Assembly (NCBI GenBank): GCA_029561455.1
Contig: JAKQIY010000008.1
Coordinates: forward strand, 1 to 61,078
DNA: 61,078 nucleotides
Reading direction: 5' to 3'
DNA from: a bacterium
GTDB taxonomy: Bacteria; Zhuqueibacterota; Zhuqueibacteria; Residuimicrobiales; Krinioviventaceae
Part shown: positions 121 to 58,330 of the stretch, one piece after another
Layout: every line of letters starts with the position of its first letter
Position numbering within the stretch: position 1 is the first letter of the stretch
Notes under the pieces: generated by a model
Seen by the model: the letters and a program-made list of their open reading frames with translations, nothing else
What the model was told of the DNA's origin: nothing
The model's database searches: none
Position numbers and translations under genes: made by a program

Positions 121-149
121 ACGCATCGCATAAAGGCGATGTACCCCAC
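121..149. repeat. Solitary REP-like hairpin of the 8.3-9.3 kb family
   Basis: The stem CATCGC/GCGATG (124-129 and 136-141) encloses the loop ATAAAG (130-135), the same loop found in the reverse-oriented units flanking the RAYT gene at 8550-9071. Stem bases differ but pair perfectly. The adjacent ACCCC only loosely resembles the ACTCC head of the family, so membership is probable, not certain. Confidence 0.4.
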
Positions 150-287
150 TTTTATAGTAATTTTTTTTGTTTTCACACAGTCTCGCAACCCCGGCGTGGT
201 CATCACGGTGGGATCAAGACCCTAACGAGTTACTATTTTAGATTGGCTACTTTAAAGATGGTATAAAGAGTTATTTCCCGGCTATCA

Positions 288-8344: not shown

Positions 8345-8545
8345 CCGGAGTGCATTCCCTTTATGGAATGCGTTTAAAAAGTTTGTTTGTTTTATGCAGC
8401 GTATAAAGGTGCAGCACTCCTGTAAAACGCACAACCGGTGATTGTTTCTTTTATGGAATGCAGTCAAGACCTGTTTGTTATAGCGCATAATGGCGCGGCG
8501 CTCTGTTAAAGCGCACAATCGGAGTGCATTCCCTTTATGGAATGC
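8345..8545. repeat. REP array, left side of RAYT (five alternating units)
   Basis: Five palindromic units alternate in orientation. Forward units at 8345-8371, ~8433-8461 and 8520-8545 have a CCGGAGT head, a GCATTCC/GGAATGC stem and a CTTTAT loop; the middle one is degenerate. Reverse units at about 8396-8420 and 8480-8503 carry the ATAAAG-type loop. The forward-to-reverse spacer at 8372-8395 is copied exactly on the right side of the transposase gene (about 9299-9322). The array directly abuts the transposase stop codon. Confidence 0.85.
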
Positions 8546-8549
8546 ATTA

Positions 8550-9071
8550 TTAAAAATCATCAATTTCATTGTAGTAATTAATTGTTTGTGGTTTATAAGT
8601 TATAAACGTTTTTCTTAGAGCTTCTTCATCCTCATTTTTATTTGAATGAAAACTTGAAAATTCATAATCATTTAAATTTGTTACATAATTATGTTTTACA
8701 GGATTATACATGATGTAGGTTGCCGTTTCATAATAGTGCTTTTCATCTCTAATACATTTATCCCAATATTGATACCAAAAGGGTTTAATCTCAATATTAA
8801 GTGTTTTTTTAATGTGAAAAGCTGTAGTTTTGTGTAATGTGTTAAAAAAGCGAGATATGTCCTGAGCCTTACTTACTTTGGCTAAAAAGTGATAATGATT
8901 TTCCAATACAACCCATTCACATAATTCCCAATTGAATTTCTTTATAAGAAGCATTAAAGTATCAATAAAAACACTCTTTGTTTTATGATTGGTTAAAAGA
9001 TGTTTTTTTTGGTAAACAGCGCCTGTGAAAAAATAAAAAAGAATCATCAAGAAACCAATGTTCTGGTGCAT
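8550..9071 (-). CDS. REP-associated tyrosine transposase (RAYT, Y1 HUH family)
   Basis: The 173-aa Y1-type transposase has the HUH metal motif H59-Y60-H61 in the stretch ENHYHFL and a candidate catalytic Tyr119 (or Tyr122) just before NPVKHNY, matching the family's YxxxNPVK signature. Such enzymes nick single-stranded REP hairpins through a 5'-phosphotyrosine intermediate. REP arrays border both sides of the gene (8345-8545 and 9148-9348), the hallmark of RAYTs. The gene is markedly AT-richer than its neighbours. It has a complete HUH core and no frameshift, so it is potentially active. The N-terminus is a little short compared with typical RAYTs. Confidence 0.85.
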   Translation of the reverse strand: MHQNIGFLMILFYFFTGAVYQKKHLLTNHKTKSVFIDTLMLLIKKFNWELCEWVVLENHYHFLAKVSKAQDISRFFNTLHKTTAFHIKKTLNIEIKPFWYQYWDKCIRDEKHYYETATYIMYNPVKHNYVTNLNDYEFSSFHSNKNEDEEALRKTFITYKPQTINYYNEIDDF

Positions 9072-9147
9072 GTTTATAATTTTTTATTATTAAAAATGAC
9101 ATTTTTCCCCTCCAAATTTAATAATAATAGAATAATTCAGTACTTAT

Positions 9148-9348
9148 GCAGCGCATAAAGGCGCTGCACTCCGGTGTAACGTACAACCGGAGTGCCTTCC
9201 CGTTATAGAATACAGTCAAGACCTGATTATGCGCAGCGTATAAAGGCGCGGCGCTCCGGTTAAGCACGCAACCGGAGTGCATTCCCTTTATGGAATGCGT
9301 TTAAAAAGTTTGTTTGTTTTATGCCGCGCATAAAGGCGTTGCACTCCG
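9148..9348. repeat. REP array, right side of RAYT (five alternating units)
   Basis: Units alternate reverse (9148-9174), forward (9187-9213), reverse (~9231-9259), forward (9272-9298), reverse (~9321-9348). The unit at 9148-9174 has a perfect GCAGCGC/GCGCTGC stem around ATAAAG, while 9272-9298 has a GCATTCC/GGAATGC stem around CTTTAT. Read in the same orientation they share the head (CCGGAGT) and loop but differ in stem bases with pairing kept. Spacers match those of the left array. Confidence 0.85.
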
Positions 9349-57775: not shown

Positions 57776-58330
57776 ATGTCAGATTATATCCGTTCTAAAA
57801 TTTCCGGCGGCATTTATTTTTTCACAGTTGTTACATTTGAGCGAATGCCGATTTTTAATAATCCCATAGCACGTAAAATATTAAGAAATGCTTTCCAAAA
57901 GATACAACAAAAATACCCATTCAAAATAATTGCAATATGTCTTATGCCAGAACATTTGCATTGTATTTGGCAATTACCTCAAAATGATTATGATTATCCC
58001 ACCCGATGGAAAGGCATAAAAGGTTTATTTACAAAACATTATTTGTTAAACAACGGGAAGCAAGGATATAGAAGCGAAAACAGGATCAAAAAACGTGAAG
58101 CTGCTGTATGGCAACACCGATATTGGGAGCATACAATTACAGATAAAGATGATTTAATAAATCATATTGATTATATCCATTTTAATCCGGTAAAACATGG
58201 ATATACCAATCAGCCGGGTGAATGGCAATGGACAAGTTTTCATAAATACGTACGGATGGGTTATTATGAAGATTTTTGGGGGAAAGAGGAACCTGTTAAT
58301 ATTGTAAAAATGAATACCATTGTGGAATAA
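57776..58330 (+). CDS. Second REP-associated tyrosine transposase (Y1 HUH)
   Basis: The 184-aa protein has the HUH motif H60-L61-H62 in MPEHLHCIW and catalytic Tyr133 in DYIHFNPVKHGY. A conserved WQHRYWEHTI block precedes the Tyr. It is a complete RAYT. The repeats around it (57183, 57382, 57721 forward; 58338, 58396 reverse) differ from those around the first RAYT at 8550-9071, so each enzyme travels with its own REP family. The two proteins share only the general fold. Confidence 0.87.
   Translation: MSDYIRSKISGGIYFFTVVTFERMPIFNNPIARKILRNAFQKIQQKYPFKIIAICLMPEHLHCIWQLPQNDYDYPTRWKGIKGLFTKHYLLNNGKQGYRSENRIKKREAAVWQHRYWEHTITDKDDLINHIDYIHFNPVKHGYTNQPGEWQWTSFHKYVRMGYYEDFWGKEEPVNIVKMNTIVE

Follow-up and report, generated by a model that had tools for sequence, protein, structure and literature searches.

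A RAYT gene within an alternating array of GGAG-headed REP hairpins in a bacterium of the KSB1/Calditrichota group

A 61,078-nucleotide stretch of bacterial DNA (the window) carries at 8345–9348 a RAYT gene lying inside an array of palindromic units. We interpret this locus as a REPtron, in which a single-copy RAYT, a single-strand-specific Y1/HUH transposase, sits within a BIME of its own REPs and would read their head and loop; we put the probability of this interpretation at about 0.85. REPtrons and BIMEs are already known as a kind. What is new here is a GGAG head instead of GT[AG]G, a fixed loop together with a free stem, the phylum (KSB1/Calditrichota) and a rule that the two arms of a REP pair differ in their stems.

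The gene (8550–9071, minus strand) encodes a protein of 173 aa. Its identification as a RAYT (TnpA-REP) in the preliminary description was borne out by a score of 91.4 bits against NCBIfam NF047646 (REP_Tyr_transpos; cut-off 80) and by a profile match to the structure of E. coli TnpAREP (4er8; E 1.1e-11), and the Pfam Y1_Tnp family was also matched over its cut-off (31 bits). The HUH motif is H59-Y60-H61 and alignment with 4er8 places the catalytic tyrosine at Y119; all four residues are invariant in the five orthologs compared, which are 63–69% identical and come from Calditrichota and KSB1 genomes. Other motifs in the protein are NHYH, WY and YI[ML]YNP. The predicted structure was poor (pLDDT 54) and was set aside. 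The gene is present once in the genome, where its next-best relative is 29% identical, and an IS200/IS605 insertion sequence, with many near-identical transposase copies, was rejected on this count. The genome contains six or more additional Y1/RAYT genes (L012–L018: C78, C36, C46:57815, C61, C28 and C68), each with a distinct flanking palindrome family. One of these lies inside the window (57815–58180) with GTAGGTCGGGCC repeats, and yet another RAYT-like gene is found at C50:161734.

Ten palindromic units in alternating orientation had been described around the transposase, and all ten were located, between 8346 and 9348, with strict alternation. Read along the window, they lie at 8346–8371 (+), 8396–8421 (−), 8436–8461 (+), 8480–8505 (−) and 8520–8545 (+), the last adjoining the 3′ end of the RAYT gene, and then, starting next to its 5′ side, at 9148–9173 (−), 9188–9213 (+), 9233–9258 (−), 9273–9298 (+) and 9323–9348 (−). 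Four of the ten stems are perfectly paired over 7 bp and represent two sequences, GCATTCC/GGAATGC in the first, fifth and ninth units and GCAGCGC/GCGCTGC in the sixth; the other six are decayed, retaining four of seven pairs in the second, fourth and seventh units, five in the eighth and tenth and, with the strongest decay, three in the third. With up to three mismatches allowed, the pattern GGAGTGCN5CTTTATN5GC has 9 matches in the window compared with 1.45 expected, a number reached in none of 100 shuffles, which excludes chance. The array has a period of about 84–90 nt, an 85-nt unit is present in four copies spaced 84 or 85 nt apart, and 8345–8420 matches 9272–9347 at 93%, in agreement with the earlier statement that spacers recur between the two sides. 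The RAYT gene occupies the place of a spacer of about 24 nt in one of the array units. Regular spacing and strictly alternating orientation over ten units are the layout of a BIME. The loop given in the preliminary description (CTTTAT) stood, whereas the head, written there as CCGGAGT, is better written as GGAG-T beside the stem, with the array spanning 8345–9348.

The REP combines the GGAG-T head with a CTTTAT loop that is fixed and a 7-bp stem whose sequence is nearly free; the canonical GT[AG]G tetranucleotide was not found at the foot of the hairpin, where the head is GGAG. A genome search that fixed the head, the loop and the two outermost stem pairs, with five stem pairs left free, gave 87 matches, compared with 2 for a reversed control, so that copies do exist outside the locus; in 62 of the 87 all five free pairs are complementary. 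Pairing among distinct stems reaches 76% (45% when shuffled), and the covariation score on 39 distinct hairpins is 0.594 (0.222 when shuffled, at most 0.169 when slid). When 226 distinct hairpins from 13 genomes were analysed in an R-scape-like test, with sequence weights and without a tree, the inner stem pairs 10-23, 12-21, 9-24 and 11-22 ranked 1 to 4 among 325 column pairs and scored above the largest shuffled value; since copies inside one genome share descent, permutation values should not be read strictly as probabilities. The hairpin set was gathered by a head and loop pattern, and conservation of these parts within it is partly ascertainment. Scans of the ortholog loci in which the loop was left free recovered CTTTAT in nearly all GGAG-headed hairpins, and those in which the head was left free recovered GGAGT in most, so the head and the loop are truly conserved and not merely selected by the pattern. 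The earlier claim that the stems co-vary therefore holds strongly genome-wide, where stem changes are correlated, whereas inside the window it would have only two stem sequences to rest on and several units carry uncorrelated stem changes; it leans on the wider genomes because so few of the window stems are perfectly paired.

Preserved stem pairing would also be expected if the hairpins were chiefly host RNA or DNA structures whose stems are selected for that role, and terminator, mRNA-stabiliser or protein-binding-site roles have been reported for other REPs (PMC8266576, PMC2817692). The hairpins may moreover be mostly intergenic: among copies outside the TIR element described below, 14 of 19 scanned lie outside ORFs of at least 120 aa, a small sample in which ORFs, taken without annotation, cover 47% of the loci. 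However, a terminator needs no conserved unpaired GGAG head, no fixed loop and no inverted pairing. Terminator-like sites nearby numbered two, compared with 1.4 expected, and the terminator reading was dropped on this result. With no match in an Rfam search either, we consider a host structure to be a very improbable explanation.

The link between the REP and this RAYT extends to other genomes. The same REP flanks all six RAYT orthologs examined (61–100% identity), and no synteny with the window was found at any of these loci. Genomes having a RAYT ortholog contain 20–79 REPs, whereas at least 20 are found in only 3 of 54 genomes without one (Fisher p 1.7e-6). None of the other Y1 loci tested in this genome has this REP; each comes with its own kind of palindrome. 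Thus a RAYT flanked by its REPs is kept in orthologs, the REP is dispersed and there is one RAYT per REP type, which supports the proposal that the BIME is tied to its mobiliser; mobilisation of the REPs by this RAYT is suggested by the association. In 24 more distant RAYT loci this REP was absent, save for a head-sharing variant in genome G040 (L099). There the RAYT is 33% identical, and the REPs have the same GGAGTGC head, the loop TCTATGT and 6-bp stems, which read GCATTC and GCAGCG and face opposite ways; here loop and enzyme may have changed in step. The three REP-rich genomes with no detectable RAYT ortholog (G025, G038 and G052) have 27–51 REPs each, and this REP is missing from every RAYT locus found in them; their REPs may be orphans, or may be served by another enzyme. 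A variant seen in G052 has CG at the stem end on both sides of the CTTTAT loop and occurs in same-strand series.

The fixed pair AGTCC/ATCGC makes up about half of the REP matches in this genome and lies within a 285-bp element bounded by terminal inverted repeats (TIRs) of 15 bp. Because these copies ride in the TIR element, the genome copy number overstates mobilisation by the RAYT; they are no evidence of RAYT-driven spread and need not stem from the RAYT. The TIRs of the element (L052–L071; window 123–183) are AGACTGTGTGAAAAC; it is present in about 25–30 copies, carries the REPs as an inverted pair and is inserted centrally in other palindromes (TTCCCAATCTCC/GGAGATTGGGAA), with apparent 4-bp target duplications at some copies. 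The left end of the window falls within one copy, as do many contig ends. No autonomous partner was seen among the TIR matches, a search limited by contig breaks. The share of REPs held in this element, together with the three REP-rich relatives that have no ortholog, is what might be expected if the hairpins were passengers, spread by the element or by another transposase, and the RAYT had landed in an old array. However, in five genomes (G002, G025, G038, G043 and G056) most REP pairs are compact, 24–34 nt apart, unlike the 153–156 nt of the TIR element. It also does not account for the joint presence of REP and RAYT ortholog at six of six non-syntenic loci, or for the lack of this REP at the other Y1 genes tested, and we regard the passenger explanation as improbable.

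The orientation of neighbouring REPs pointed to the inverted doublet, as in a REPIN, as the repeated unit: counts of neighbours within 200 nt were dominated by outward-headed inverted pairs (120, compared with 16 inward and 8 same-strand). None of the 120 outward pairs has identical stems, whereas in 5,000 permutations the mean number of such pairs was 18.7 and the minimum 8. In 94 of the 120, one stem ends in CC and the other in GC. Over 12 genomes there are 69 distinct stem combinations and no identical-stem combination among them, and the same rule holds in the other-loop variant of G040 (GCATTC versus GCAGCG). The stems had been thought to change under selection acting on the hairpin; pairing is indeed kept, but the changes are not a simple free drift, as two alternating arm types stay different within a pair.

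Folding predictions, computed with the spacers replaced by A, gave a fold-back energy of −15.8 kcal/mol for the observed pairs, compared with −33.9 for identical arms and −20.7 for random re-pairing; two separate hairpins gave −12.8. Different arms are thus predicted to weaken fold-back between the arms, although a fold-back with different arms keeps a stability advantage of about 3 kcal/mol over two hairpins, and we infer that the difference keeps single hairpins available. Descent contributes to the arm difference, and pairs within a genome are often near-identical copies (G025, G038 and G043). That plain descent of one copied two-stem pair, without selection, should be the whole reason for the different-arm rule is nevertheless doubtful, as it sits poorly with so many stem combinations lacking a single identical one and with the rule being found again in a variant with another loop.

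In the REPtron interpretation, the RAYT would act on single-stranded DNA, reading the GGAG foot and the loop, with the stem giving geometry only, which would be why stems drift by paired changes. The enzyme would cut beside the hairpin and so may aid the spread or amplification of pairs. The arms would stay different because identical arms would zip into a long fold-back that hides the single hairpins. Whether there is a GGAG-headed RAYT/REP clade whose enzyme reads head and loop only, with the arms of the mobile pair selected to differ and so kept from zipping together, seems to us evenly balanced.

A genome of the same genus (G001) shares with the window the gene order sigma factor, desulfoferrodoxin, methyltransferase. 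In G001 the gap between the last two is about 81 bp and has no REP, compared with 1,049 bp in the window, and the entire REPtron (8345–9348) is missing from it; this genome carries its RAYT at another place. The empty site fits either a gain in the window or a loss in G001.

Several features of the locus are known from elsewhere, namely the placing of a RAYT among alternating REPs, recognition that depends on the loop, and paired stem variants. In E. coli, alternating REPs of two kinds lie on both sides of a Y1 RAYT (PMC2817692, PMC8266576), and this REPtron (TnpAREP/yafM, BIME-2, Y and Z2 REPs) resembles the window in having the RAYT between alternating REPs and in its homologous enzyme (4er8). 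The hairpins themselves differ: in E. coli the head is GTAG, the stem is bulged and the loop shows no sequence preference, whereas in the window family the head is GGAG, the stem perfect and the loop fixed. Closer in form are the short perfect palindromes of the group 3 (subclass 2.5) REPtrons Sm and Mb of Stenotrophomonas and Marinomonas, in which loop bases are critical for cleavage and the Mb loop is TTTA (PMC8266576), a sequence contained in the window loop CTTTAT. The head of Sm and Mb is GTAG and their protein motifs are DH[LF]H and WQ (PMC6006769), in contrast to NHYH and WY in the window RAYT. The protein motifs of TnpAREP subclass 2.8 (NHYH, W[YH] and YIHYNP; PMC6006769) resemble those of the window RAYT, but its REPs are long and of the canonical GT[AG]G type and its N terminus is proline-rich; neither feature is seen here. 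Motifs close to those of subclass 2.8 joined to a short REP thus set the window family apart. The REPINs of Pseudomonas fluorescens likewise have an inverted REP doublet as the unit (PMC3116915), but their arms share a conserved 16-mer and fold into one long hairpin, whereas the arms of the window family never share a stem. Mixed REP pairs are already known, from Y/Z in E. coli (PMC2817692) and from the heterodimeric families Enterobacteriaceae GTAG-3 and P. aeruginosa GTAG-24, which have pairs with different stems or loops, as here (PMC3733652); in these families the head is GTAG, and the loops and stems are different ones.

A literature search for RAYTs in KSB1 or Calditrichota found no paper linking them. 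The GGAG-headed family extends REPtrons to this little-studied group, and it would escape a search by the GT[AG]G motif such as that of PMC6006769. Its more than 200 natural hairpin variants from 13 genomes are a ready-made mutagenesis set, separating the parts probably read by the enzyme, head and loop, from a stem in which only pairing matters. The different-arm rule suggests why there are mixed pairs like Y/Z in E. coli, an explanation open to testing.
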